Source of the DNA: Desulfonatronospira thiodismutans ASO3-1
GTDB lineage: Bacteria; Desulfobacterota; Desulfovibrionia; Desulfovibrionales; Desulfonatronovibrionaceae
DNA length: 64,000 nt
Direction of reading: 5' to 3'
NCBI RefSeq assembly: GCF_000174435.1
Contig: NZ_ACJN02000002.1
Location: 124,001 to 188,000, forward strand
The notes beneath the pieces are model-generated. The model did not search any database and was not told where the DNA came from. It was given only the letters and a program-made list of their open reading frames with translations. Below, one piece after another: positions 22,188-41,718 of this stretch. The translations under genes and the position numbers were made by a program. Positions within the stretch are counted from its first letter, which is position 1. Every line of letters begins with the position of its first letter.

Positions 22188-24371
22188 ATGGCTGACAACA
22201 AGACAGGAGTATATATCTGTACCGGTTGCGAAATCGGGGACAACCTGAACAAGGAAGCGGTTCGGGAGTATATTGACGAAGAGTGCTCTCCAGCGGTGCT
22301 CAAGGAGCATGGATTTCTTTGCAGCAAGGAAGGAGTTGCGGAAATCCAGAATGATATCGACAATGAAGGGGTGAACAAGGTCTGCATAGGTGCCTGTTCT
22401 CCCAGGGTCATGTGGGACGTGTTTGATTTCGGACCAAGTGTCTTGGTGGAAAGGGCCAATATCCGCGAACTGGCTGTCTGGTCTTTCCGTGATCCGGAGC
22501 TTCCGGAGCCTGAAGATGACGAGATGTCCGATCCTTTGACCATGATGGTCCGGGATTATATCCGCATGGGCGTTGTCCGTCTGGAAAAGACCGATTACCC
22601 CGAGCGCGAACCCCTGGAGCCAAGCAACACCATCATGGTCCTGGGCGGCGGAGTGACCGGTCTCAACGCCGCCCTGGGCGCTGCCAATACCGGCTACGAC
22701 GTGGTCCTGGTGGAAAAGGAAGACAAGCTGGGTGGTTTCGCCGCCAAAATGTACAAGCAGACCCCCACCAAACACCCGTATACCGAGGCTGAACAACCCT
22801 CAGTGGACGAACTGATCCGCAAAGTGGAAGGAAACGACAAGATCAAGGTCCTGACCAAGGCTGAACTGCAGCTCATCAAGGGAGCCCCGGGCAAATACAC
22901 CGTTACGGTAAAGTCCGGAGGCGAAGAACACGAGCTCTTTATAGGCTCCGTTGTTCTGGCCACTGGCTGGAAGCCCTACGATGCCTCCAAGCTGGGACAC
23001 CTGGGTTACGGCAAGATCAAGAACGTGGTTACCAATGTGGAGCTGGAGACCATGGCCAAGGAAGGCAAACTGCAAAGGCCCTCCGACGGTCAGCCGGTTA
23101 AAAGTGCTGCATTTATCCAGTGCGCCGGACAAAGAGATCCCGAGCATCTTCCTTACTGCTCTTCGGTATGCTGCATGGGCTCTTTAAAGCAGGCCGGGTA
23201 TATCCGGGAAAAGGACGATGATGCCAAGGCCTTTATTTTCTACAAGGATATGCGCACACCTGGAGTATTTGAAAACTACTACCGGGCGGCCCAGGATGAT
23301 CCAGGGATATTTTTGACCAAGTCCGAGATTCAGGAAGTAAGCGAAGACGGCGATGGCAAGGTCGTGGTCAAGGTAACCGACACCCTGCTGGGTGAAGATG
23401 TGGAAGTTGCGGTGGACCTTCTGGTCCTGGCCACAGGCATGTTACCCACCATCGCAGAAGATGCCGTACTCAAACTTGGTTACCGCCAGGGCGAACAGAT
23501 CCCGGATCTGGAGCTTTTCAACGGCTTTGCCGATTCCAACTACATCTGCTTCCCCTATGAAACCAGACGTACAGGGATTTATGCAGCCGGATGCGTGCGC
23601 CAGCCCATGAGCATGGGTACTGCCAAGGACGACGCCGCCGGTGCAGCCCTCAAGTCCATCCAGTGTTTGGAGTCAGTCAATCACGGCGTGGCTGTGCATC
23701 CCCGTTCCGGGGACCCCACCTACCCCAAGTTCAACATGGTCCGCTGCACCCAGTGTAAGCGCTGCACCGAGGAATGCCCATTTGGAGCCCTGGACGACGA
23801 CGAGAAGGGAACTCCGGAGCCCAACACCACCAGGTGCCGCCGCTGCGGAACCTGCATGGGAGCATGCCCGGAGCGCGTCATCTCCTTTGACAACTACAGC
23901 GTTTCCATGCTCAATGAGGCCATCGGTGCAATTCAGGTCCCGGAGGACGAAGAGGAAGGCGGCTACCGCATCCTTTGCCTGGTCTGCGAAAACGACGCTT
24001 ACCCGGCCCTGGATATGGCGGCCATGCGCAAAAACAAGTGGTCGGCATCCATTCGCTTCATAGGCATCCGCTGCCTGGGCTCGGTGAACACCCAGTGGAT
24101 CGCTGAATCCATGAGTAAGGGCATTGACGGGGTACTGCTGCTTGGCTGCAAGTACGGCGACGACTACCAGTGCCACTTCATCAAGGGAAGCGAACTCTGC
24201 AATATGCGCATGGACAACATAGGTGAAACCCTGGAAAGACTGCAGGTTGAATCCGAAAGGGTTCAGCAGAAGCAGATATCCATAGATGAATATGACAAGA
24301 TCCCCAAGATAATCGATGATTTCATCGAAGAGATCGAGGGATACGGACCAAATCCATACAAGGGTTTCTAG
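22188..24371 (+). CDS. qmoB: Quinone-interacting membrane-bound oxidoreductase subunit B
   Basis: HdrA-like flavoprotein fused to an MvhD-type domain, 727 residues. An N-terminal roughly 140-residue extension begins VYICTGCEIGDNL. The FAD site GGGVTGLNAALGAANTG follows, then the HdrA core with IVLATGWKPYD-type and IQCAGQRDPEHLPYCS blocks. Two [4Fe-4S] motifs (CTQCKRCTEECP and CRRCGTCMGACP) lie near 520-570. The last 130 residues (LCLVCENDAYPALD, IRCLGSVN, LLLGCKYGDDYQC) are MvhD-like, an [Fe-S] domain that links hydrogenases to heterodisulfide reductases. It starts six bases after qmoA. Confidence 0.96.
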   Translation: MADNKTGVYICTGCEIGDNLNKEAVREYIDEECSPAVLKEHGFLCSKEGVAEIQNDIDNEGVNKVCIGACSPRVMWDVFDFGPSVLVERANIRELAVWSFRDPELPEPEDDEMSDPLTMMVRDYIRMGVVRLEKTDYPEREPLEPSNTIMVLGGGVTGLNAALGAANTGYDVVLVEKEDKLGGFAAKMYKQTPTKHPYTEAEQPSVDELIRKVEGNDKIKVLTKAELQLIKGAPGKYTVTVKSGGEEHELFIGSVVLATGWKPYDASKLGHLGYGKIKNVVTNVELETMAKEGKLQRPSDGQPVKSAAFIQCAGQRDPEHLPYCSSVCCMGSLKQAGYIREKDDDAKAFIFYKDMRTPGVFENYYRAAQDDPGIFLTKSEIQEVSEDGDGKVVVKVTDTLLGEDVEVAVDLLVLATGMLPTIAEDAVLKLGYRQGEQIPDLELFNGFADSNYICFPYETRRTGIYAAGCVRQPMSMGTAKDDAAGAALKSIQCLESVNHGVAVHPRSGDPTYPKFNMVRCTQCKRCTEECPFGALDDDEKGTPEPNTTRCRRCGTCMGACPERVISFDNYSVSMLNEAIGAIQVPEDEEEGGYRILCLVCENDAYPALDMAAMRKNKWSASIRFIGIRCLGSVNTQWIAESMSKGIDGVLLLGCKYGDDYQCHFIKGSELCNMRMDNIGETLERLQVESERVQQKQISIDEYDKIPKIIDDFIEEIEGYGPNPYKGF

Positions 24372-24381
24372 GAGGTTATAG

Positions 24382-25524
24382 ATGTCTACAAGAATCGACC
24401 CTGATGTACAGTTTATCCGGGAAATGCAGGCTGCCGGAGGCGAATCCCTGAAGAAATGCTATCAGTGCGCCACCTGCAGCGTGATATGCCCCCTGTCGCC
24501 GGAAGAAACCCCGTTTCCCCGCAAGGAAATGGTCTGGGCCCAGTGGGGCATGAAAGACAAGCTGGTCAATGATATCGACATCTGGCTGTGCCACAACTGC
24601 GGCGAGTGTTCCGACTACTGCCCCCGCGGGGCAAAGCCGGGTGACCTGCTGGCGGCTCTGCGCAATACAGCCTACAAATCCCTGGCCAGGCCGGCCATCC
24701 TGGGCGAGTGGATGAGTTCAGCCAAGTATCTGCCGGTACTCTTTGCCATTCCGGCTATACTTTTTCTCATTGTCTGGGCCATTACCACCGGACTGACCAT
24801 CCCGGACGGAGAAATCGTATTCAGCAAGGTGTTCCCCACACTTCAGGCCATTGACCCCATTTTCATCCTGACGGTCATTTTCGTGGTCTTCACCTTTATC
24901 TATTCGGTGGGGAGGATGCTGTCGTCGTTCAAGGAAGCGGGGTACGTGCCCCAGGAAGGCTCGCCCTCGCTGTTAAGGTCCCTTTATGACGTAATCAAGG
25001 AACAGATCCTGACCCACGTCAAGTTCAAGGACTGCGAAACCAACCAGGAGCGCTACACCGGCCACCTGCTGGTATTCTACGGATTTGTAGGGCTTTTCCT
25101 GGTAACCGCGTTTGTAGCCACAGCTTACTGGATGAACATATTCGGCATTGTCGATTTCGCCACACCCATGGCCATGTGGAACCCGGTGAAGATTTTCGCC
25201 AATATTGCCGGAATTGCGCTCATTGTGGGGCTTGTTTACATGACCCGCATGCGCCTGAACATTGACCCCAAAAAGACCGTCAATTCCTTTTATGACTGGT
25301 ACCTTCTGGGGGTAATCTGGGCAGTGGTCATCACCGGCTTCCTGGCCCAGATCTTCAGACTGGCTGATGCAGCTGCTCTGGCCTACATAGTCTATTATCT
25401 GCACCTGGTAACTGTCTTCATGCTCTTTGCATACCTGCCCTGGTCCAAGCTGGCCCACCTGGTATACAGGACAGTGGCCCTGGCCTATGCCAGACAGATA
25501 GGACGCAAGGGGCTTTCTGAATAG
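24382..25524 (+). CDS. qmoC: Quinone-interacting membrane-bound oxidoreductase subunit C
   Basis: Membrane anchor of Qmo, 380 residues, a fusion of HdrC-like and HdrE/NarI-like parts. The N-terminal domain has two [4Fe-4S] motifs, CYQCATCSVICP and CHNCGECSDYCP. Six hydrophobic helices follow from about residue 115 (first one PVLFAIPAILFLIVWAI) with histidines placed for haem b binding. It oxidises menaquinol and feeds QmoAB. GGAGG lies 7 bases before the ATG and the gap to qmoB is 10 bases. A terminator follows. No qmoD-like gene is seen directly downstream. Confidence 0.95.
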   Translation: MSTRIDPDVQFIREMQAAGGESLKKCYQCATCSVICPLSPEETPFPRKEMVWAQWGMKDKLVNDIDIWLCHNCGECSDYCPRGAKPGDLLAALRNTAYKSLARPAILGEWMSSAKYLPVLFAIPAILFLIVWAITTGLTIPDGEIVFSKVFPTLQAIDPIFILTVIFVVFTFIYSVGRMLSSFKEAGYVPQEGSPSLLRSLYDVIKEQILTHVKFKDCETNQERYTGHLLVFYGFVGLFLVTAFVATAYWMNIFGIVDFATPMAMWNPVKIFANIAGIALIVGLVYMTRMRLNIDPKKTVNSFYDWYLLGVIWAVVITGFLAQIFRLADAAALAYIVYYLHLVTVFMLFAYLPWSKLAHLVYRTVALAYARQIGRKGLSE

Positions 25525-27955: not shown

Positions 27956-28627
27956 ATGCATCAAAATAATGACGCCCATATCTCTCTTTTCAGCCTGCCC
28001 GGTGCAGAGGAAAACCAGGCCGGCAAAAGTTCCTGGGCTGTGCCCTGGTCGGATCTTATGCTGGTCATGTTCATACTCTTCCTGGTTCTTTTTGTCTTTC
28101 ATACCCGGGAGACACTGGTCCGGGTGCCGGTAAACCAGGACGGTCACTGGAACCAGGCAGTGCAGAATCAAAGCAGCAGCCTGCAGCTGCAGGGCCTTTA
28201 CACCCAGGCCAGGGAAAAGCTGAGTACGCCCGGAGCTCCGGTAAGCGTCAAAATGACCGAGCAGGGCAGCGTACTCATTTCCCTGTTCGGGGAGGTTTTT
28301 TTCAGCCCCGGCAGTGCAGACCTGAACCCTGAGTCTAATAAATATCTGCAGCAGATCGCCGAGATTGTTTCCCTGGCCCAGGGACAGGTCAAGGTGGCGG
28401 GTTTTACCGACAGCAGGGAAAACAGTGTACAGGGGGACCGCAGTATCTTTGAAATCTCGGCCATGCGCGCTGCTCGTATCGGGGAAGAACTTACCCGGTC
28501 CAGGGGACTCAGGCAGGAAAACCTGGTCATCCAGGGACACGGCACTCCGCGTCCCCAGGTACCTGAAAACTCACCCGTGGGCAGCGAAATGAACCGGCGG
28601 GTGGAAATAAGAATCGTGGACTCGTAA
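27956..28627 (+). CDS. MotB/OmpA-like stator protein
   Basis: A 223-residue protein with a short cytoplasmic N terminus and one membrane helix from about 31 to 50 carrying Asp33 in WSDLMLVMFILF. This is the position of the ion-binding aspartate of MotB. A linker follows, then a C-terminal OmpA-like peptidoglycan-binding domain (FFSPGSADLNPES, GFTDSRENS, NRRVEIRI). It is followed 78 bases later by a MotA-like gene, the reverse of the usual motA-motB order. No flagellar genes are in the window. It may be a flagellar stator or a stator-like energiser of another machine. Confidence 0.85.
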   Translation: MHQNNDAHISLFSLPGAEENQAGKSSWAVPWSDLMLVMFILFLVLFVFHTRETLVRVPVNQDGHWNQAVQNQSSSLQLQGLYTQAREKLSTPGAPVSVKMTEQGSVLISLFGEVFFSPGSADLNPESNKYLQQIAEIVSLAQGQVKVAGFTDSRENSVQGDRSIFEISAMRAARIGEELTRSRGLRQENLVIQGHGTPRPQVPENSPVGSEMNRRVEIRIVDS

Positions 28628-28705
28628 GAAGTCAGAGGTCAGAAGTCAGATGCCACAGAGGCATCTCGTAAACAAGCATATATTTTTTCGACCCGGGAGT
28701 ATGTC

Positions 28706-29530
28706 ATGATAAACAAAACCATAACCGCAGGCCTGATTTGCTTTACGCTCTTTGTGTCAGCCTTTTTCCTGGCCGGAGAGGCCTCAATATATTTCAACGC
28801 CACTGCCTTTCTGGTGGTCACTTCCGGCACCCTGGGCGCTGGACTTTTAAGCTCCGGACCAGGAAGGGTGAAAAAGGCCCTGGGATTCGCATCCAGGGCT
28901 TACACCGAAGAACAGGGGCGGGAAAAAAGACTCCTGGACGCCCTTATGAGCCTGGGGCATCTGCACCGCAGGCACGGTATCATCAGCCCGGAAAGCATCA
29001 GGGAGATAAACCCTGTAGCTGCCCACGGGCTGGAGCTTATAAAGGACGGCTACAGCGAGACCGAGATCCGGGAGATCATGGGATCTGATGCCCAGGCCCA
29101 CTGCCGTTTCCGGCAGGAACTGGAAAAGGTATTTCGCAACATGGCGGCCTACGCCCCCTCATTCGGGGTGGCCGGCAGTGTAATCGGGCTGGTGGGACTG
29201 CTCATGGGTATAGAGGAAACAAGCCTTATCCTGAAAAATGTGCCGGTCACCCTGGTCTCCACCCTTTATGGCATAGTTCTGGCCAATTTTCTGCTGCTGC
29301 CCGTAGCTGAAAAAATGCGCCAGGAAAAGGAAAAGGAAATCAGGGAACGGGAAATGGTTTTATGCGCTATGATCAACATGAGCAGGGGCGCTGACTTTTT
29401 GAAGATGCAGCGCATGCTCAACGCCATGGCCTCGGAACCGGAACTGCGGGTGGAGGACAGCGGTGCCTTCAGGCGCATCAATGCCGCCATAAAAAATCAG
29501 GGCGTCAAGGCCCGGGCGGAGGGTCAGTAA
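28706..29530 (+). CDS. MotA/TolQ/ExbB-like proton channel protein
   Basis: A 274-residue membrane protein with MotA topology: two N-terminal helices (about 5-25 and 30-50), a large cytoplasmic domain (about 60-150), then two helices. These are APSFGVAGSVIGLVGLL (with the conserved Pro of the ion path) and VTLVSTLYGIVLANFLLLP. A basic C-terminal tail of about 60 residues follows. It forms the stator channel with the MotB-like protein upstream. Cytoplasmic charged residues that touch FliG in MotA cannot be assigned with confidence by eye. Confidence 0.87.
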   Translation: MINKTITAGLICFTLFVSAFFLAGEASIYFNATAFLVVTSGTLGAGLLSSGPGRVKKALGFASRAYTEEQGREKRLLDALMSLGHLHRRHGIISPESIREINPVAAHGLELIKDGYSETEIREIMGSDAQAHCRFRQELEKVFRNMAAYAPSFGVAGSVIGLVGLLMGIEETSLILKNVPVTLVSTLYGIVLANFLLLPVAEKMRQEKEKEIREREMVLCAMINMSRGADFLKMQRMLNAMASEPELRVEDSGAFRRINAAIKNQGVKARAEGQ

Positions 29531-29603: not shown

Positions 29604-29680
29604 GCGCCTGTAGCTCAGTAGGATAGAGCAGGAGCCTTCTAAGCTCTTGGCCGGGGGTTCGAATCCTCCCAGGCGCGCCA
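29604..29680 (+). tRNA. tRNA-Arg (anticodon TCT)
   Basis: Complete cloverleaf: acceptor GCGCCTG/CAGGCGC, D stem GCTC/GAGC, anticodon loop CTTCTAA with TCT, T loop TTCGAAT, and encoded CCA end at 29678-29680. It reads AGA codons. Confidence 0.97.
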
Positions 29681-29709: not shown

Positions 29710-31632
29710 TCAATACGGTATCGGCAGAGTCACAAAGAGGTGGGTGCCTTCTTCTTCCGAGGTGGTGAAGGTAATATCTCCGCCGTGCGCCCTGGCGATG
29801 AGCAGGGCACTGTAGGTGCCAAGGCCCGTGCCGTACTGCTTGCCATGGGTGACGTAGCGGTCAAAGAACCTGTCCCTGATGTTTGCGGGAACAGCCCCCT
29901 GGTTGTGGATATCCACCAGGCATGAATCCTTGCTGCGTTTAATGACAACCTGCACGCTTTCTCCAGTGGGAGAGGCCTCCAGGGCATTGTGCAGGAGATT
30001 GGCGAACAGGGATTCCAGAAGAATCCTCTCCCCTTTTGTCTCCACGCTGTCACTTCTGGTCATGGCCGCTCCGTTGAGATAGTATTCCAGCTTTACGCCC
30101 TTGTTTTCCGCCGAGGGCAAGAGCTCTTCATGCAGTGAACAGAAAACTTCAGCCAGGTTGACCCGTTCCTCCTTGAGGGTATAAGTGCCCTGTTCTATCC
30201 TGAGCAGGGACATGGTGTTGTTGAGCATGCGCAGGAGTTTTATCCCGCTCTGGTAGATGGTGACCACGAAATTGCGCTGCTTTTCGCTCAGGTCCTCTTT
30301 GAGCAGGTGCCGGCCCAGGCCGGCGATGCCAATGAGGGGAGACTTCATATCATGGCGCACTATGCGCTCCACTTCACTGCGCATTATTTCCAGCCTCTTT
30401 TCCTGGGTGATGTCTGTCAACACCCCGTTCCAGACAACGGCTCCGTCTTCCTCCCGCACCCTGCACAGGGCCCTGTTCTTGATCCAGACCTTTTCCCCGT
30501 CAGGTCCTCCGGGCATGGAAAATATGAATTCCTGGAGTTCATCCGATTCTCCCCCCGACTCCAGGGCCTGCAGAAAAGTGGCCCGGATGTCCTCGTCCAT
30601 ACTCTGGAAAAAAAGCTCCTGATCCTCCAGCACCTTGTATGGGTCCAGGCCGAACATCCAGCGCACACCGTCGCTGATAAAGGTAAACATCTTCGTGTCC
30701 CGGTCCTGGACATAATACTGATATACAACACCCGGTATGTTGGAGGTTATTTCCCGCAGGCGTCTTTCGCTGGATTTCAGGGCCCGCTCCACCCTGGTCC
30801 GGTCGCTTACGTCCTGAATGGTCTCAATGGCTCCAAGCACCCTGCCCTGCACGTCCTGGTAAGGAGCAGCCAGAAAATATATATCCCTGGCCTCGCCCTG
30901 AATGTTCAAGGTATCCCTGGCCTCGTAGGCATCAGGGATATAAAGGCAGGAGGCAAGGTTTTTATCTCCGTAAAGGGTGCACATCTTTTCCACGTTGCCT
31001 TCCAGTACCAGGTCAGCCAGTACCTGCCTGCCCGGACCGGGGTAGAAGATCCTGGAGTCCACGGCCCGGCCCAGGGTCTTATCCCTTAAGACCCCGGTAA
31101 AAGCTTCACAGGCCTTGTTCCAGATAACCACCTTGTGCTCATGGTCGATTACAAAGGTGGCGATGGGCACAGCGTCCAGGATGGCCTCAAGCTGCTTTCT
31201 CCTGATCCTGAGCCTGGATTCGTACTCCTTGTGTCTGGTGATGTCCCTGAGGGTGGTCAGGACGGCTTCCCTGCCCCTCCAGGCGATCTTCTTCATGTAC
31301 ACTTCCACGGAAAACTGCCTGCCCTCGCCTGGAATCCTGGCAGTAGAGGAAAAAAGAAGATTCCCTCCGGCATCTATCCTGGAGCAGAGCCTTGAGAGCT
31401 TGCGCATGGGGGCATGCGGCGCAAAAAAATCCCTGCCGAAATCAAGGTCAAGAGCCCTGTTTCTATCCACGCCGAACATCCGCATGGCTCTTTCATTAAG
31501 CTCCAGGATACCGCCTTTCGAGTCATGCACAAACAGGGCCTCGTTTACTCCGTGAAATACCTGGAGCAGGTCCTGTAGGCCGGCCCGGCCTGCATCATGG
31601 CCTGAAGGATTATTATCGTCCTTTGTTGTCAT
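29710..31632 (-). CDS. Soluble multi-PAS sensor histidine kinase
   Basis: A 640-residue kinase with no membrane helix. Three PAS domains lie at roughly 25-140, 145-275 and 290-410 (LFVHDSKGGILELN; ATFVIDHEHKVVIWNKACEAFTG; MFTFISDGVRWMFG). The HisKA helix has phospho-acceptor His427 in RHDMKSPL, and the HATPase has NLLHNALEA and GTGLGTYSA. The start is 5 bases after the ydbL-like stop, so it belongs to the ydbH-ynbE-ydbL transcript. No receiver is attached. The second PAS contains a cysteine-rich stretch (CTLYGDKNLASC) which might hold a cofactor. Confidence 0.9.
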   Translation of the reverse strand: MTTKDDNNPSGHDAGRAGLQDLLQVFHGVNEALFVHDSKGGILELNERAMRMFGVDRNRALDLDFGRDFFAPHAPMRKLSRLCSRIDAGGNLLFSSTARIPGEGRQFSVEVYMKKIAWRGREAVLTTLRDITRHKEYESRLRIRRKQLEAILDAVPIATFVIDHEHKVVIWNKACEAFTGVLRDKTLGRAVDSRIFYPGPGRQVLADLVLEGNVEKMCTLYGDKNLASCLYIPDAYEARDTLNIQGEARDIYFLAAPYQDVQGRVLGAIETIQDVSDRTRVERALKSSERRLREITSNIPGVVYQYYVQDRDTKMFTFISDGVRWMFGLDPYKVLEDQELFFQSMDEDIRATFLQALESGGESDELQEFIFSMPGGPDGEKVWIKNRALCRVREEDGAVVWNGVLTDITQEKRLEIMRSEVERIVRHDMKSPLIGIAGLGRHLLKEDLSEKQRNFVVTIYQSGIKLLRMLNNTMSLLRIEQGTYTLKEERVNLAEVFCSLHEELLPSAENKGVKLEYYLNGAAMTRSDSVETKGERILLESLFANLLHNALEASPTGESVQVVIKRSKDSCLVDIHNQGAVPANIRDRFFDRYVTHGKQYGTGLGTYSALLIARAHGGDITFTTSEEEGTHLFVTLPIPY

Positions 31633-31637
31633 AGGCC

Positions 31638-32042
31638 CTAATTTTCGAAATCCTTTTTACGCACCCAGTTGCGGTTCTGGTCCTGGACATAATGGTTGTC
31701 ATCAGCCAGGCGATACATGCGGATGCGGTTCTGCAGGGCCACTTCCTGCACTGATGTATCCGTATCCGCGGCGATTATCTGGTAAAGCTCTCTGCGGTCG
31801 TAATTTTCCGAGTCCACCAGGTCCTGCACCCGGGATGGAGCGCCCTGATCGACTAAAGCAACCATGCCGTTCCAGGCCTCGCCCACCAGGCCCTGGTCCT
31901 TGGCCTGTACCAGGCTGGAATGGCGGTCCTTCATGCTCTGCACCACTTCATCCTTGCTCCTGTTCTGGGCCCAGGCAGCAGAACTTCCCAGCATAAAAGA
32001 CAGCAGACATATCAAAAGCACCGTCCAGATTTTATTTTGCAT
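31638..32042 (-). CDS. ydbL: YdbL-like periplasmic protein (DUF1318)
   Basis: A 134-residue exported protein with signal peptide MQNKIWTVLLICLLSFMLGS ending near AWA. Mature features match the YdbL family: a repeated charge pattern and terminal IRMYRLADDNHYVQDQNRNW. I chose the ATG at 32042, with GAGG 9 bases upstream, over an ATG seven codons earlier. It is the last of ydbH-ynbE-ydbL, as in E. coli, where these genes support phospholipid traffic between the membranes. YdbL is thought to modulate the YdbH-YnbE bridge. Confidence 0.85.
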   Translation of the reverse strand: MQNKIWTVLLICLLSFMLGSSAAWAQNRSKDEVVQSMKDRHSSLVQAKDQGLVGEAWNGMVALVDQGAPSRVQDLVDSENYDRRELYQIIAADTDTSVQEVALQNRIRMYRLADDNHYVQDQNRNWVRKKDFEN

Positions 32043-32072
32043 GATCTTAACCTCGTGGTTCATGTTTTGAAA

Positions 32073-32297
32073 CTATTGCAACTGCTTCAGCTCTTCTTCG
32101 GAAAAAATATCCTCCATACCGCCCTGAAAAGCTAAGGCGTCATCCAGGGCCTTCTGCACCTTGAGGTTGATGTCCACTGTGACATGAATGGGGGCTATTT
32201 CTACCTTGTGGGTAGTGTCGGCGGTCACATGGTGCCTTGTGCACGATGCCAGCAAAAAAATAAGCACTGCCAGTAAACACAGAATCTTCTTGTCCAT
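32073..32297 (-). CDS. ynbE: YnbE-like lipoprotein
   Basis: A 74-residue lipoprotein with lipobox LLASC, Cys19 being the lipidated residue. The mature part has VEIAPIHVTVDINLKVQKALDD, matching YnbE. In E. coli YnbE sits in the outer membrane and joins the C terminus of YdbH by beta-strand stacking, completing the bridge. The C-terminal half here is longer (ending EEELKQLQ). It lies between the ydbH- and ydbL-like genes, 60 bases after the former. Confidence 0.85.
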   Translation of the reverse strand: MDKKILCLLAVLIFLLASCTRHHVTADTTHKVEIAPIHVTVDINLKVQKALDDALAFQGGMEDIFSEEELKQLQ

Positions 32298-32357
32298 GAT
32301 TCTCTCCGCTTCTTTGGTAACAGTTCAATGTACTGATAAACGGGTCAAAGGTCGGGG

Positions 32358-35213
32358 TCAAAAATCCAGCCAGTCGTCCAGCGCCCTCCTGGCGGCGTCT
32401 TCTCCGGTGATTCCCAGATCCAGGGCATGGTTCAAAGTGTCTTCCAGGCCACTGACATTGAGCACCAAGCTGCCCACGCGCTGGGGAGGATCGCCGTGCA
32501 CTCCCTCTCCGCGGATCTCTATGCGCGCCCGGACATCATCGGCCATGGGAATGATATTCAGAGTAAAATAATCATACTCGAAATCCCTGAGGGCCTCTTC
32601 CAGCCTTTCGCTCAGGATTGAGAGGTACTCCTGCCCGGCCAGGCTCTGGCGCACATACATAAGCAGGGTATCCATGAGCTCTTCATCTTTTATGCCCAGC
32701 CTGCCGGTTCCAGGAAGGGAATATATGTATCCGTCCCCAAGACTTATCCTATCAGAATCCAGGCCCAGGTGCACGTGCCCGTAAAAGAGGCCGCTGCCCT
32801 CTATCTTGTCCTGGAAGGCCCGTCCGGCATACTCAAGGAGATCCACGTCCTCAAAATACATATCCAGCCGGCCTTCCCCTGCTTCCAGGTCCCACCTGGA
32901 AGAATGTACTGCAATCCTGCCCTGTGGCACCAGCAGCCAGGAGCTTTTGTCCAGATGCAGTGTATCCCCCCGGACCCTGAAACTGGTCAGACCGTCCCGG
33001 GCGGAAAATATATCCGTGTCAAGCTCCTGGACATGCAGATAGCTGTCCCGGTCCCGGGCGGTGTACAAGGGATCGATGCTGTCCAGGGCCACAAGACCTG
33101 ATATGCCTCTGGCTGCAATCCCTGCTTCCCGGCCCTGCACATCCAGGTCCTCCAGCTCCAGCTGAAGGTACGGCTCCATGCCCCCTGCATCCAGGTCCGC
33201 CTGTATATCCAGCCTGGCCCGGCCCTGAATATCAAAATCCCTGATCCGGGGAAAAAAGTCCTGGAGCTGCTCCCGGGACGGTACATCAAACCAGTCAGTG
33301 CCGGCTGTTGCCCTGCCTTTCAGACCCTGGTCCCCGAAAAAAAGATCCAGTCCCAGATCAGCCTTGATTCCCGGGAAAGCCTCCCAGGCCCCGTAAGCTT
33401 GGAACCGGTAATCACTGACAGCAACGCCGCCTTCAGGCCCGGGGAACTTCTCGCCGTTATAATAAATATGTTCTATATTCCACCTGCCCCGGTCCTGTGC
33501 CTGGCTGTCCCAGCTCACGGGCAGGCCAAAGCTTATTCCTGCAAGTTCAAGGCCCATATCCTGAAGTTCTACCCCGCCCCCGGAAAGACTAACTGTAAGC
33601 CCGCCCCGGGGCAGGCCGTCCATGAACTCCAGGTCAGCCTGCAACCCCCCTGCGGCGAATGAGGCCCGTGCGTCACGGGATTTTACAACCAGCCCGCCCG
33701 GCAAGGAAGCATCCAGCATTATCCGGGGTGCTTCTCCCGCAGCCAGATCCAGCCCGGCCCAGTCGTCTCTGCCGGACAGGGTAATCCCCGGTATTTCCAG
33801 GTGCTCATCCTCCAGGTCCATGGACATGGAATCAAAACCAAGCCTGCTCTCCCGGCCCAGGCGCACAGTGGTCAAATCCGGCCCGGCAGAAATCCCGGGA
33901 AACAGTTCCAGAAAAATGCCCCTGACCTGCGCCTTCTGCTGCGGCAAATGCAGGTCCAGCGGTCCTGCTTCAGCACTGGCAGAATCTAAGGACACCCGCC
34001 AGTCCAGCCCGCCTTCATCACGGATGGCCCAGGCCTTGAGTCTACCTGCAGCCTGCAGGGGAAAGTCCCTCTGGACCAGGGCGTCTTTCGGCAGAAAAAC
34101 CCCGGCCAGCTCAGGGGATACAGATCCCGCCAGGTCCAGGTCCCACTCTCCGGACCAGGGCTCATCCCCGGACCACAGGGCAAATATGTCTTCATGTGTG
34201 CCCGTCAGGTCCAGATCCAGCCTGTCCGGCTTTTCCAGACGGGCCTGCATAGACGATACTCCCCTGTCCTTAAGCAGCATATCAATACCGGCAAACTGAA
34301 AATCACCCAGTTTAAGGCCTTCCAGCTGAACACCTGCCTGCAGACTGTCACGGGAAAAACCGTCAAAAGTACCCTGCAGGTTCAGCGCCGCCCTGTCCAG
34401 GCCGAACTTCGTACCAGCCAGTGTCAGGTGCTGTCGCCCAAGCTCTGCATAAAAATCAATACAGCCGTCTCCTGGATCATCCAGGCCGCCGGCCCAGGTT
34501 AGCGAAAGTTCCGCCTGCAGGGGCAGCCCCTGCCGGGGCAAGGACTCAAACCTCTCATCTTCCGGCCAGGAACTCTGGATCGAAACATCCGCCCTGCCTG
34601 ATTCCAGGTCAGCCAAACCCTTTATCTGCAGAGCTGAACCAAGGAGCCTGGTTTCAAATTCGGCCCTGATGTTTTTAACATCCCCGGCCTGGACAACACC
34701 GCTAAGGGGCACCCGCCAGCCGAGGCCTGCGTATTCCATAAGAAATGAAGACGACTGCAGCTCAAGCACATCAAAGGGAAGAGCAGGGACGGCCAACTCT
34801 CTTTCCCGGTCGTCCCCTTTAAAGGGCAATCCCAGGTCCAGTCCTTCCGGAGTGTATCCGGCCCGCCAGTTCAGGCCTGTGACCACAATTCTATCGGCCC
34901 TGCCCTGCATAAGGCTTGACCACCCAAGGCGCACAGCCACCCGGTCAACTTCCAGCCCCAGGTTTTCCCCCCGGATGTCACTCAGGTGAATCCCCCTGGG
35001 ACCCACGGAGTCCACCCGGATTTGAGCTTCTTGAATGCCCTGGTCTTGCATGTAGCTTACAAGAAACCTTTCCAGGATGAAGGGCAGGGATATATACAGC
35101 CCCAGGACCAGGACCGGCAGAAGCGCCAGCATTAACAGCAGTACTGAAACCACCTTGCCGTGCATGGACCGGGGCCGGTTCTTCCTGCTCCCGGCAGGAC
35201 TGTTACGGCTCAT
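32358..35213 (-). CDS. ydbH: YdbH-like intermembrane bridge protein (AsmA-like)
   Basis: A 951-residue protein with a basic N terminus and one membrane helix at about 20-42 (VSVLLLMLALLPVLVLGLYI). A long beta-strand-rich periplasmic region with repeated L-x-L/D-x-D patterns follows, as in AsmA/TamB/YhdP-type lipid conduits. The C-terminal DUF2993-like portion ends in LNVSGLEDTLNHALDLG. In E. coli YdbH is one of three redundant carriers of phospholipids to the outer membrane. Cotranscribed with the YnbE- and YdbL-like genes and flanked on the same strand by two sensor kinases, the upstream one ending 32 bases before this start. Confidence 0.87.
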   Translation of the reverse strand: MSRNSPAGSRKNRPRSMHGKVVSVLLLMLALLPVLVLGLYISLPFILERFLVSYMQDQGIQEAQIRVDSVGPRGIHLSDIRGENLGLEVDRVAVRLGWSSLMQGRADRIVVTGLNWRAGYTPEGLDLGLPFKGDDRERELAVPALPFDVLELQSSSFLMEYAGLGWRVPLSGVVQAGDVKNIRAEFETRLLGSALQIKGLADLESGRADVSIQSSWPEDERFESLPRQGLPLQAELSLTWAGGLDDPGDGCIDFYAELGRQHLTLAGTKFGLDRAALNLQGTFDGFSRDSLQAGVQLEGLKLGDFQFAGIDMLLKDRGVSSMQARLEKPDRLDLDLTGTHEDIFALWSGDEPWSGEWDLDLAGSVSPELAGVFLPKDALVQRDFPLQAAGRLKAWAIRDEGGLDWRVSLDSASAEAGPLDLHLPQQKAQVRGIFLELFPGISAGPDLTTVRLGRESRLGFDSMSMDLEDEHLEIPGITLSGRDDWAGLDLAAGEAPRIMLDASLPGGLVVKSRDARASFAAGGLQADLEFMDGLPRGGLTVSLSGGGVELQDMGLELAGISFGLPVSWDSQAQDRGRWNIEHIYYNGEKFPGPEGGVAVSDYRFQAYGAWEAFPGIKADLGLDLFFGDQGLKGRATAGTDWFDVPSREQLQDFFPRIRDFDIQGRARLDIQADLDAGGMEPYLQLELEDLDVQGREAGIAARGISGLVALDSIDPLYTARDRDSYLHVQELDTDIFSARDGLTSFRVRGDTLHLDKSSWLLVPQGRIAVHSSRWDLEAGEGRLDMYFEDVDLLEYAGRAFQDKIEGSGLFYGHVHLGLDSDRISLGDGYIYSLPGTGRLGIKDEELMDTLLMYVRQSLAGQEYLSILSERLEEALRDFEYDYFTLNIIPMADDVRARIEIRGEGVHGDPPQRVGSLVLNVSGLEDTLNHALDLGITGEDAARRALDDWLDF

Positions 35214-35245
35214 ATTTCCCGCAATTATGTTTTGATGAAGGACAG

Positions 35246-36652
35246 TTACTGGGCAGGGCAGTTGAGTCCCAGCTTCAAAGTAAAGTAAAAAGTGCTGCCC
35301 CGGCCTTCTTCAGTATCCAGGGCGATAGTGCCCCCCATGAGCTTGACCAGGTTCCGGGCTATGCTCAGCCCCAGGCCCAGGCCGCCGTGCCTGCGGGTAA
35401 AGCTGTTGTCCGCCTGGGAAAAAGGCTGAAAGACCTGGAATATGAGATCATCGGATATCCCGGGACCGGAGTCGCTCAACGCAAAGCCCGCAAGGATACT
35501 GTCCTCATAACTGCGCAGAAGGCTTACATCCAGATGAATCTCGCCATCCTGGGTAAACTTTACGGCATTGCTGAGCATATTGAAAAGGATCTGCCTGACT
35601 CTGGCCTGATCCCCGCAGACCTCTCCCGGCAGGTCCGCTGCAATGCTGAGCTTAATGCCGAGACCCTTTTGTCTCGCTGAAGCCTCCAGGCTTTGTATTG
35701 TCTGTTGCACAACGCTGCGCAGATCAAAAGGCCTGTTTTCCAGCCGGGGTTCTACCTGGTCAAGGCCGGCAAACTCCAGGATATCTGAGAGTATGGTCAA
35801 GATTCCCCGGCCGGAAGCCTTGGCTGTCTGCAAAAGCTCCTGCTGCTCCTCATCCAGGGAGGTATCTTCCATAAGCTGCAGCATGCCGAAGATACCGTTT
35901 AACGGGGTGCGGATCTCATGACTCATGTTGGCCAGGAATCCACTCTTGGCCTTTGTGGCCGCCTCAGCTGCATCCCTGCTCTCAATCAGCTCCTGCTCCA
36001 CCTTTTTTCTGGCCTCTATCTCCTGGCGCAGCATGTTGTTGGTGCCCTCCAGGGTCCTGTTCATCTCCAGGAGCTTTTCAGAATATTCCACCTGCCGGGT
36101 AATATCCTGCATGGCTGTAAAGCAGCGCAGGGCCTTTTGATCGCCGTGCTCAACGGCTATGCTTTTGATGCGCGCCCAGATCCCCCTGCTGTTTTGCACT
36201 TTGAGCTTGAGGCTTACGTCTTCCGCCACTGGCTTTTTGCTGAAAACACGGCGGCGGTGATCGGAAAAAGCCCTCTGGTATGTGGTGTCTAAGTAGAGCA
36301 TAAAGGGTTTGCCGTGCAGGGTACGCTGATCCATACCCAGCATTTCCGCCCCGTAGCGGTTCACATCTTCTATGATGCCGTTTTCGTCGAAAACGAAAAA
36401 CCCCACAGGTGCAAAATCAAAAAGCCGCCTGTACTCATTGCTGGTTCTTTCCAGCTGCTCCTGCTTGGCCTGAAGTTCCTCGTTCTGAATGGACAGCTCC
36501 ACCTGGTAGACGCTTAGCTCCTGCAGTACTTCCTGGACATCTTCAAACTCCGATGCAGGCCCGCTTAAATCGTCATACTCCTTAAGGCTTTTTTCCGCCT
36601 TTTCCCTGAGTTCCTGCAATCTGTCCCTGGTAGATTTTTCGTTGTCAGGCAT
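35246..36652 (-). CDS. Soluble PAS sensor histidine kinase
   Basis: A 468-residue kinase (478 if a TTG at 36682 is used; the ATG at 36652 has only a weak ribosome-binding site). An N-terminal coiled coil contains LSVYQVELSIQNEELQ, a motif common before PAS domains. One PAS domain follows at about 80-190, then a second coiled coil, the HisKA domain with His245 in SHEIRTP, and an HATPase with LSNAVKF and GLGLGLSIA. It lacks transmembrane helices and a receiver. First gene of the operon that continues into ydbH, so it may monitor the envelope indirectly. Its response regulator is not in the window. Confidence 0.88.
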   Translation of the reverse strand: MPDNEKSTRDRLQELREKAEKSLKEYDDLSGPASEFEDVQEVLQELSVYQVELSIQNEELQAKQEQLERTSNEYRRLFDFAPVGFFVFDENGIIEDVNRYGAEMLGMDQRTLHGKPFMLYLDTTYQRAFSDHRRRVFSKKPVAEDVSLKLKVQNSRGIWARIKSIAVEHGDQKALRCFTAMQDITRQVEYSEKLLEMNRTLEGTNNMLRQEIEARKKVEQELIESRDAAEAATKAKSGFLANMSHEIRTPLNGIFGMLQLMEDTSLDEEQQELLQTAKASGRGILTILSDILEFAGLDQVEPRLENRPFDLRSVVQQTIQSLEASARQKGLGIKLSIAADLPGEVCGDQARVRQILFNMLSNAVKFTQDGEIHLDVSLLRSYEDSILAGFALSDSGPGISDDLIFQVFQPFSQADNSFTRRHGGLGLGLSIARNLVKLMGGTIALDTEEGRGSTFYFTLKLGLNCPAQ

Positions 36653-36695
36653 AAATTGTGATCCAATAAAGTTTGACTGCAATCATCTCTGCAAA

Positions 36696-36778
36696 GGCAC
36701 TTGTCCGTGCCTGAGAGCACCCGTTTCCCAGGGTATGCTGCAGGAATATCCGCCTGCTCAGAGCACCTGGTCCCTGGA
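36696..36778 (-). ncRNA. Possible structured leader upstream of the PAS kinase
   Basis: Nested stems are visible: CCAGGG (36728-36733) with CCCTGG (36772-36777), an internal GCAGG/CCTGC hairpin, and GGCAC/GTGCC (36696-36711). On the minus strand, CTCTCAGG-CAC-GGACA resembles the 3' core of glycine riboswitches, but the matching 5' half is not recognisable, so no class is assigned. The remaining gap up to thiE is featureless. Confidence 0.3.
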
Positions 36779-36965
36779 TTATACCAACCATTTCTGATGT
36801 TTTTTTGCATGAATTTAGATTAATTGTCCAGTCTTTATTAATGCCTCAGGTCTTTATTCTGAAAATACGCCGCCAGAGCACAAGGGCTTTTAAATAACTG
36901 TTCCTGTCACATCTTTTCCGCCCGGCATCTTGCTTTTGGGGGCTGCATGTTTTAGAGTTTAGTTT

Positions 36966-38088: not shown

Positions 38089-41000
38089 TTACTTTGTTTT
38101 GAGTTCCCTTGTCACCTCTTCAACTTCCCTTTCAAGCTCTGTCAGCAGATCCTCAACTCCCTGCATATCCTGACTGCGGCCCTTATGCTCCAGCTTTCTG
38201 GCTGTTTCCCAGGCCACGTCCGCCACAAAGATACCCAGCATCCCCTTGAGGGTATGGGCGCTGTGAGTCAGGGAACCCGGATCATTGTCCTCCACAGCCT
38301 TGCGGATGCGCTGCATGTAGCCTTCGTAGGTCTGGAGAAAATTTTCGGACAGTTCCGCAAGAAGCTCCTGGTCATCTCCCATGCGGGCCAGGGCAGTCTC
38401 CAGATCAGCAGCTGCCGGCGACTGAAGACCTGGATCTTTTGACATGTTTTCACCGGCTTCTTCCATTTCTTCCTGGCTCCGGCCAGAGTGTTCTCCCAGC
38501 ACTGCTTTTATCTCCTTGAACAGATCGGCCTTGCGGATGGGTTTTTGCACATAGCTGTCCATGCCCGCTTCCAGACATTTTTCCCGGTCGCCTTTCAGGG
38601 CATGGGCGGTAATGGCGATAACAGGTGTCCTTAAAAGACCCTCTTCCTGCTCCCGGGCCCGGATAAGCCTTGTGGCTTCCAGGCCGTCCATAACCGGCAT
38701 CTGCACGTCCATGAGCACCAGGTCAAAATTCTCCCGGGCCAGAGCATCCACAGCCTCCCGGCCGTCATGGACCCCGCGGACCTGATGCCCCTCCTGGCTG
38801 AGTATCCTGACGGCCAGGAGCTGATTCACCTCGTTGTCTTCGGCCAGCAGTATCTTCAAGGGCCTTAAACCGTCAATTTCCTCCCCTTTGCCCTCTTGCG
38901 CCTGCTCCTGTTCATGGTCCATGCCCCCTGATACGGCATCCAGGATGGCCCCCAGAAGCTTAGACTGCTTTACCGGCTTGAACAGGTAGGCCTTGACCCC
39001 GTAGGTTCGCAGTTTCCGGGAGTCTCCCAGCTGCGCCCCGGAGGTAAGTACAAGTATGACCGGCTTTACAGAAGGGTCCATGTCCTGCATGGCCTCCAGC
39101 ACGTCCAGGCCGTTCATCTCCGGCATGTGCATGTCCAGGAGCATGACCTGAAAAGGATCATTTGCGCTGGCGGCATGTTCCAGCATCTTCAGGCCCTGGC
39201 CGCCGCTCTGGGCGATGGCCGGCTGCATCCACCAGTACCTGAGGCTTTCTTCGAGTATACCGGCGTTGTTGGCATTGTCGTCAACAATGAGCACCTTGAG
39301 CCCCTGCAGCTGGCTTACATCCCCCAGGACCTGCTCTTTTTGCGCATCCTCTCCAGGCTCCAGGGGCAGCACAAAGCTGAAAGTGCTGCCTCTGCCGGGC
39401 TCGCTTTGCATCCAGATACGGCCTTTCATCATTTCTACCAGGCGGCTGCTTATGGACAGCCCGAGCCCTGTGCCCCCGTACTTACGGCGGGAGCTGCCGT
39501 CCGCCTGAACAAAGGCCTCAAAAATACCTTCCTGTTTGTCCCAGGCAATGCCGCTGCCGGTATCCACAACTCTGAAGAGTATCTGCAGTTTTGAGAGGTA
39601 ACCCTCGTCCCGGGCTGCATGCTGGAGCATTTCTTCTGCTGCCGCCAGGCGGACTTCCACCTGCACCTCACCCTGCTGGGTAAACTTGATGGCGTTGCCC
39701 ACCAGATTGACCAGTACCTGGCGCAGGCGGTCAGGATCTCCTTTGAACCCGTCCTCCATATCCGGCTCCACACGCACTACCAGCTCCACCCCCTTTTGAT
39801 GGGCCAGCATGGCCACGGAGTAGACAGCGTTGTGCACGGTTTCGCGCAGGCTGAAGTCTATGTACTCCAGATCCAGCTTGCCGGCCTCGATCTTGGAGAA
39901 ATCCAGGATATCGTTTAAAAGGGCCAGCAGGGACTCAGAGGAATTCTGAATAATGGACAGATATTCCTTCTGCTCGGGAGTCAGCTCGGTGTTGCCGGCC
40001 AGCTCGGTCATGCCCATTATGGCATTCATAGGAGTGCGGATCTCATGGCTCATATTGGCCAGGAATTCGCTCTTGGCCCGGCTGGCCTCCCTGGCCTGCC
40101 TGGCTGCTTCCTGGTATTTTTCGTTGAGTACCATCAGCTCCTGGTTTTTTTGCTCCAGGTCCTGCTCTTTTTCCATGAGGGCGGTCACATCCTGAGCCAG
40201 TTCCAGGTAGCCGGCGATGTTGCCCTCACGGTCTCGCAGCACCTTGGCCCTGGGCCGGATATACATGACCCGGCCTTCACCCCGGTCCCAGCGGATAATC
40301 TGTCTGGTATCCACATCTTCGCCTCTTTGCAGGGTAGCTATGGGACATTCGGGCAGACCGCAGCAGTCGGCGTTGAATATCTGCCGGCATGTATAATATC
40401 TCAATTCTTCCGGGTCGTGCTCTTCTGCCAGGTCCATTGTGGCCCGGTTGGCGTGCATGATGTGCATATTGCTGTCCACCACGAACACCGGGTCCGGGAT
40501 AGCGTCCAGGACCATGGTGTTGAAAGTGAGCATCTCATGGTATCTGTCCATGAGCCGGTTGAAGTCCGAGGTCAATTGGCCCAGTTCGTCCCTGGACCCG
40601 GGATCCAGCCGCCGGCCCAGGCTTTCTTTATTTTCCTGGATACCTTGTATCTGCTCCCGGATACGGCTGATGGGTTCTATAACGCTTTGCTGGACCACTT
40701 TGCGCCCCACCAGGAGAAAAACCAGCATAATGGCCAGAGGAGTGCCCCACAGAAGGCGGTTCATCCAGGCCAGCCTGAACTGCTGCTGGCTTACATCCAG
40801 ATACTGGGCGGAGACCCCGACTGCATTGCCTGCATAGTCCAGTATGGGAAAGGCAGCAACGGCATACCCCTTTTCAATGCGCACCTGCAGACCCTGCTCT
40901 CCCTGCTCCAGATCCTGGACATTGAGGGCCTGCATTATCTCTTCCTCGCCCTCGCCTGCAGCCAGTATATAGTTCTCATTCAGGCGTGGATAAGTATCCC

Positions 41001-41718
41001 GGTCCTGCATCTCCGGGGCCAGGTGCAGCCATTCTTTTTTCATGAACATGTTCAGGTGACTGACATGTTTGAGTTCCAGGTCCTCCCAGACATCACTGAA
41101 CCGGGACAGGGACTCCACTGAACCCAGGTATTCTCCGTTTTCGGAAAAAACAGGCAGAACAGCCCGGACCACCAGTCCTCCCCTGCCCACCTCGATGCCG
41201 GAAACCGGCTCACGGGTTTCCATTACCCGGTTCACCGTGCCTCGAAACTGAGTCAGGTCATCGGACCTGTCCTCCTGCAGACCGTTTAAGAGTACGTTCT
41301 TGTCCCGCCAGCTGCGCAGGAGGCTGCGGCCGTTGGGCAGATGAAAGTGCAGGCGCAGAGGCTTGTCTTCTCCCAGCATCCGGCTGTACCCCTGCATAAA
41401 ATCCTGCAGGCCATGCCTCAAAAATTCCCTGGCCTCCTGTACGCGCAGATCGTAAGGATCATCCATGTCTCCTTCTGCGGCCGTTTCCAGAGACTCTCTC
41501 ACCAGGGGGTGAGCCGAGAACATGGCTGCCTGCTCCCTGGCGCTCAGCTCCATTATGCTGACGACCTGGTCAATTTTGTCCTGATTCTCCAGGGCCAGCC
41601 TCTCAGCCCCGGACTTTTCCATATGACCGCGCTGCAGGGTGGAGGCATAAAAGGCCACCGAGGTGAAAAAAAGCACCAGGAGGATCAAGGGGATAAAAAT
41701 CTTGCTTTGAATGCGCAT
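38089..41718 (-). CDS. Hybrid sensor histidine kinase with two receivers and HPt domain
   Basis: A large membrane-bound phosphorelay kinase of 1209 residues. First helix at about 5-27, periplasmic sensor region to about 320, second helix ([17 protein letters not shown]), HAMP, and PAS (about 405-510) with several cysteines ([15 protein letters not shown]) as in redox- or metal-sensing PAS variants. HisKA with His558, HATPase ([17 protein letters not shown]), first receiver with Asp862, second receiver with Asp1004, and a C-terminal HPt with His1155 in HTLKGM. The entire relay is in one chain. It lies 45 bases after the kinase at 41764-43173 in the same direction. The final output regulator is not seen. 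Confidence 0.92.

Follow-up and report, generated by a model that had tools for sequence, protein, structure and literature searches.

It is probable that two unrelated orphan histidine kinases, here named K1 and K2, became neighbours of an ordinary ydbH-ynbE-ydbL (ydbHEL) locus in Desulfonatronospira thiodismutans ASO3-1, and that they did so at different times. The arrangement is lineage-limited: K1 follows ydbL in most Desulfonatronospira loci, and K2 is absent from the corresponding site in the congeners that show it.

The five-gene run and its ydbHEL core

The locus was analysed within a stretch of 64,000 nucleotides of contig NZ_ACJN02000002.1 (hereafter the window), from a 4.1 Mb genome in 5 contigs. 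In transcription order the run consists of K2, ydbH, ynbE, ydbL and K1, all on the minus strand, with gaps of 32, 60, 9 and 5 nt; the five genes and the gaps of 5-60 bases described in the initial annotation are thus all present where it placed them. The K2 start that it gave, an ATG at 36652, is a possible start, but is an internal ATG if the first TTG, at 36682, is used. The features are as follows:

K2, 35246-36682 (-): soluble PAS histidine kinase without a receiver domain (Pfam PAS, HisKA, HATPase_c)
ydbH, 32358-35213 (-): AsmA-like, presumed intermembrane lipid-bridge protein, 951 aa (PF11739)
ynbE, 32073-32297 (-): presumed outer-membrane lipoprotein, 74 aa, lipobox LASC (position, Cys19, size)
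ydbL, 31638-32063 (-): presumed secreted DUF1318 protein, 141 aa (PF07027)
K1, 29710-31632 (-): soluble multi-PAS histidine kinase without a receiver domain (Pfam PAS, HisKA, HATPase_c)
tRNA-Arg (tct), 29604-29680 (+): ARAGORN prediction just past the K1 3' end, marking the end of the run
thiE-K2 intergenic region, 36653-36965: may preserve part of the former promoter region between thiE and ydbH

No match was found among plasmid records. By Pfam, no gene encoding a receiver domain adjoins the run, the nearest receiver domains found being those of a hybrid kinase at 38089-41718; orphan kinases do not require a linked regulator. Beyond the tRNA-Arg lie a MotB-like and then a MotA-like gene (window 27956-29530, +). 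Further away, window 22188-25524 encodes a FlpD-FAD-iron-sulfur protein followed by an iron-sulfur protein weakly matching a membrane subunit family, a pair that I take to resemble qmoB-qmoC of sulfate reducers.

YdbH and YnbE are reportedly the subject of a 2024 PNAS paper. The identification of the trio in the window holds, through Pfam for two of its members and through position, lipobox and size for the third. YdbH matches PF11739 (49.1 bits, cut-off 26.3), YdbL matches PF07027 (DUF1318; 82.5 bits, cut-off 27), and a profile comparison of E. coli YdbL with the window YdbL gave an E-value of 3.1e-14. YnbE has no Pfam match, PF13617 included, whereas E. coli YnbE matches PF13617 at 59.3 bits, and the profile match between the two proteins is weak (probability 55%, E 1.2e-4). 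It does align with the proteins encoded at the same position in relatives, and Cys19 is conserved among these. The name ynbE is to be taken with caution, as it rests on position, lipobox and size rather than on a Pfam match. YdbH possesses an N-terminal hydrophobic segment, and its AlphaFold model (mean pLDDT 75) consists of an N-terminal helix followed by a long beta structure. A Foldseek search with this model returned low TM-scores to large beta proteins, nothing meaningful, and was not used as evidence; a search by sequence found no solved relative.

The likeness to the E. coli trio lies in the gene order on one strand, the presence of PF11739 and PF07027, the lipoprotein-like middle gene and the short spacing. 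In contrast, the YdbH described here has diverged so far that its profile does not align with that of E. coli YdbH by itself (probability 1.1%), and YnbE is below Pfam detection. The surroundings also differ, since in E. coli K-12 ldhA lies before ydbH and feaR after ydbL with no kinase neighbour, which bears out the earlier statement that the E. coli trio is not linked to kinases. Overall, this would be an ordinary ydbHEL lipid-bridge locus, with movement of phospholipid between the membranes by the trio extrapolated from E. coli genetics. There, YdbH is described as redundant with YhdP and TamB (PMC8593681), and as interacting with the lipoprotein YnbE (PMC12977461).

Related genes were also seen in other settings. 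At L110:9387-9986, a 199-aa DUF1318 lipoprotein, seemingly joining a YnbE-like motif to DUF1318, is encoded beside a 702-aa partner; this setting belongs to another family of the order, and differs from ydbHEL. A protein of the zinc-dependent phospholipase C family (PF00882, 65 bits) is encoded divergently from ydbH at L039:8522-9253, and apparently similar genes occupy that place in L037 and L038.

Probable separate histories of the two kinases

In K2, Pfam identifies PAS, HisKA (70 bits) and HATPase_c (91 bits), with an H-box HEIRTP at residue 255; in K1, it identifies PAS matches, HisKA (33.6 bits) and HATPase_c (55 bits), with an H-box HDMKSP at residue 427. No membrane segment was found in either protein, so they cannot see the periplasm directly. 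In their combination of PAS, HisKA, HATPase_c and H-box, and in having no linked regulator, they resemble orphan PAS histidine kinases without a receiver domain, from which K1 differs in closing an envelope operon in each of two settings.

The site occupied by K2 is empty wherever it is visible in the congeners. In G002 and G005, ydbH directly adjoins a divergent thiE, without an intervening gene, and the ydbH of G003, cut by a contig end, likewise adjoins thiE; K2 is thus absent in all three congeners showing the site. No full-length K2 match was found in the congeners, the matches in G002 and G006 covering mainly the kinase core, and at E 1e-60 there is none in G001, G003, G004 and G005. The best relative of K2, at 48% identity, is a kinase of G010 that is not encoded near ydbHEL there. 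As K2 is missing between thiE and ydbH in these three congeners, it either came into the locus in this lineage or disappeared from several others. The thiE-K2 intergenic region shares one weak 40-nt match with G002, at a local-alignment score reached by ~1% of shuffles and not reproduced with G005, and promoter retention upstream of K2 is therefore possible.

K1 has a longer association with ydbL. It lies behind ydbL in four of the five Desulfonatronospira loci, at 5 nt in G000, 4 in G001, 5 in G002 and 19 in G005. This tight spacing is kept down to the 65% protein identity of the G005 orthologue, a sign that the cell at least tolerates co-expression, and perhaps benefits from it. In the fifth locus (G006), ydbL and K1 are on two contigs whose ends have 75 identical bases in common. 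Across the contig break, this suggests that the contigs adjoin and that ydbL is separated from K1 by ~0.75 kb of repeats, apparently without coding function; the same tRNA-Arg follows K1 there and in the window. Dense repeats are found at these contig ends, at L004:3739-4387 and L074:1-185.

At E 1e-90, K1 was found in 13 of the 348 genomes of the class, namely 5 Desulfonatronospira (its own genome included), 1 Desulfonatronovibrio and 7 of another family of the order, f4. In the Desulfonatronovibrio genome (G015), K1 occupies a 3.2-kb contig by itself, away from ydbHEL. The seven f4 orthologues are 45-50% identical, and cover query residues 13-640 in six cases and 14-569 in G049. All seven lie directly behind dacA, encoding a D-alanyl-D-alanine carboxypeptidase, on the same strand and at 4-30 nt, in a run ordered ABC-F gene, dacA, K1. 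The orthologous tail gene and its short gap are common to both settings, but in f4 the partner is dacA rather than a lipid bridge, and ydbHEL was not found: within genus g7 of this family PF07027 is matched in 0 of 8 genomes (against 59 of 150 relatives overall), and the YdbH profile retrieved nothing in 8/8, in a search whose positive control was a single YdbH query in f1 genomes, and not the exact profile run used on g7. Because its f4 orthologues follow dacA where ydbHEL was not found, K1 is not dedicated to the trio.

Kinase linkage across relatives

I then surveyed ydbHEL loci for a same-strand kinase within ~250 nt, scoring visible sides only. In Desulfonatronospira a kinase is present on 1 of 3 upstream and 4 of 5 downstream sides, and in the sister genus Desulfonatronovibrio on 1 of 5 and 1 of 4. 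None was found in the rest of the order (0/34 upstream, 0/39 downstream), nor in other named genomes (0/57 and 0/72), where the 72 loci are those left from 80 after removal of 8 duplicates. Among named contigs, those of Desulfonatronospira MAGs are nearest, followed by Desulfonatronovibrio.

Beyond the genus and its sister, 49 genomes of the order are PF07027-positive, and 41 of these entered the counts, some of them with a different DUF1318 lipoprotein setting (e.g. L110) that may not be true ydbHEL; loci of 48 of the 49 were analysed at length (all but G080), and 7 were dropped because the YdbL profile built here found no YdbL in them. Two further loci were left out of the counts, L038 of G015 (Desulfonatronovibrio), where ydbL is cut by the contig end, and L042 of G003 (Desulfonatronospira), where ydbH is cut. 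With K1 counted once, the family has a kinase on 4 of 13 sides, whereas the remainder of the order has one on 0 of 73 (Fisher p 3e-4), and without the discovery genus the comparison is 2 of 9 with 0 of 73 (p 0.011); these tests are post hoc, on related genomes, and are a lead only. The two sister-genus genomes involved, G007 and G010, belong to one genus, and the events are perhaps not fully independent.

The sister-genus neighbours of ydbHEL are a REC-kinase upstream in G010, a kinase downstream in G007 and a methyl-accepting chemotaxis protein (MCP) upstream in both, with a solute-binding PAS kinase among the signalling genes. In two genomes of Desulfonatronovibrio type, MCPs with Cache, HAMP and PAS domains are encoded upstream of ydbHEL, at L041:6014-8395 and L040:12381-14771, and in one of these a REC-kinase lies between the MCP and ydbH.

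The expectation that linkage would extend to close relatives is therefore borne out for one kinase only: K1 is linked to ydbL in 4/5 loci of the genus, so this half of the linkage survives the comparison, and K2 is missing at its site in G002, G003 and G005.

Interpretation and meaning of the locus

The initial annotation had also suggested a coupling of phospholipid transport to a signalling output at this locus. This is unsupported, as K1 lies behind dacA in f4, neither kinase has a membrane segment and no regulator is linked; nothing points to a dedicated circuit sensing or controlling phospholipid transport. A literature search found no paper that links a histidine kinase to ydbH; three papers contain both terms, and in one of these ydbH occurs in the references only. 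In the reading that I favour, of separate arrivals beside an ordinary locus, K1 would have been the last gene of the operon since before, or early in, the genus, and its 4-19 nt gaps indicate that it is probably co-transcribed with ydbL. K2 would have entered the locus on the thiE side of ydbH in this lineage, or other lineages would have lost it. Both soluble PAS kinases would respond to signals in the cytoplasm and phosphorylate regulators whose genes lie elsewhere, and a shared transcript would set the amount of kinase together with that of ydbHEL. In a genome where kinases cluster (see below), a pair enclosing a short operon is itself ordinary. Against this reading stand the tight spacing kept by K1 and the signalling genes beside ydbHEL in the sister genus.

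K1 may instead be dedicated to monitoring the state of the envelope, acting on ydbHEL through its regulator in a feedback loop created by co-transcription, with the dacA-linked orthologues acting likewise for peptidoglycan trimming. That the same orthologous kinase ends two unrelated envelope operons at very short gaps speaks for this, but K1 has no membrane-spanning or periplasmic part and no linked regulator, it has different neighbours in the two families, its link to ydbL seems to be interrupted by repeats in G006, and in G015 it stands apart from ydbHEL; I consider this unlikely. A role of K1 and K2 as a joint two-kinase input enclosing the operon is very unlikely. They do flank the same operon, and terminator-like sites across the region are not above chance (6 found, 10.4 expected), but congeners that have retained K1 lack K2, and the similarity between the two (25%) is confined to the kinase core. 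The two were rejected as a matched pair on this similarity and on the lack of conservation of K2.

The kinases could also be mere passengers, transcribed separately, of a run that is no functional unit. The genome contains 81 HATPase_c matches, and among the 76 kept there are 11 consecutive same-strand kinase pairs 4-8 kb apart, the K1-K2 pair included, where uniform placement would give ~2.5. Kinases therefore cluster, and two of them around a short operon are not rare in this genome; the repeats between ydbL and K1 in G006 are also consistent with such passengers. However, with a gap of 5 nt, a K1 promoter of its own would have to lie within ydbL, and promoter-like sites are not above chance in a crude scan (3 found, 5.1 expected). 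The passenger reading as a whole is improbable.

More broadly, this lineage of sulfate reducers may have set His-Asp signalling genes beside envelope-maintenance operons several times, wiring outer-envelope upkeep to cytoplasmic sensing. The cases behind such a habit are K1 at ydbHEL and at dacA, K2 before ydbH, and the REC-kinase, solute-binding PAS kinase and MCP of the sister genus; as a general habit this is doubtful, and the repeated placement of kinase genes beside envelope operons is a weak lead. A kinase within the operon would offer a way into the regulation of anterograde phospholipid transport; that the linkage is lineage-limited and one of the kinases not conserved lowers its value as evidence. 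The most useful residue of this analysis, and the only part worth a bench test, is K1 with its two envelope settings.
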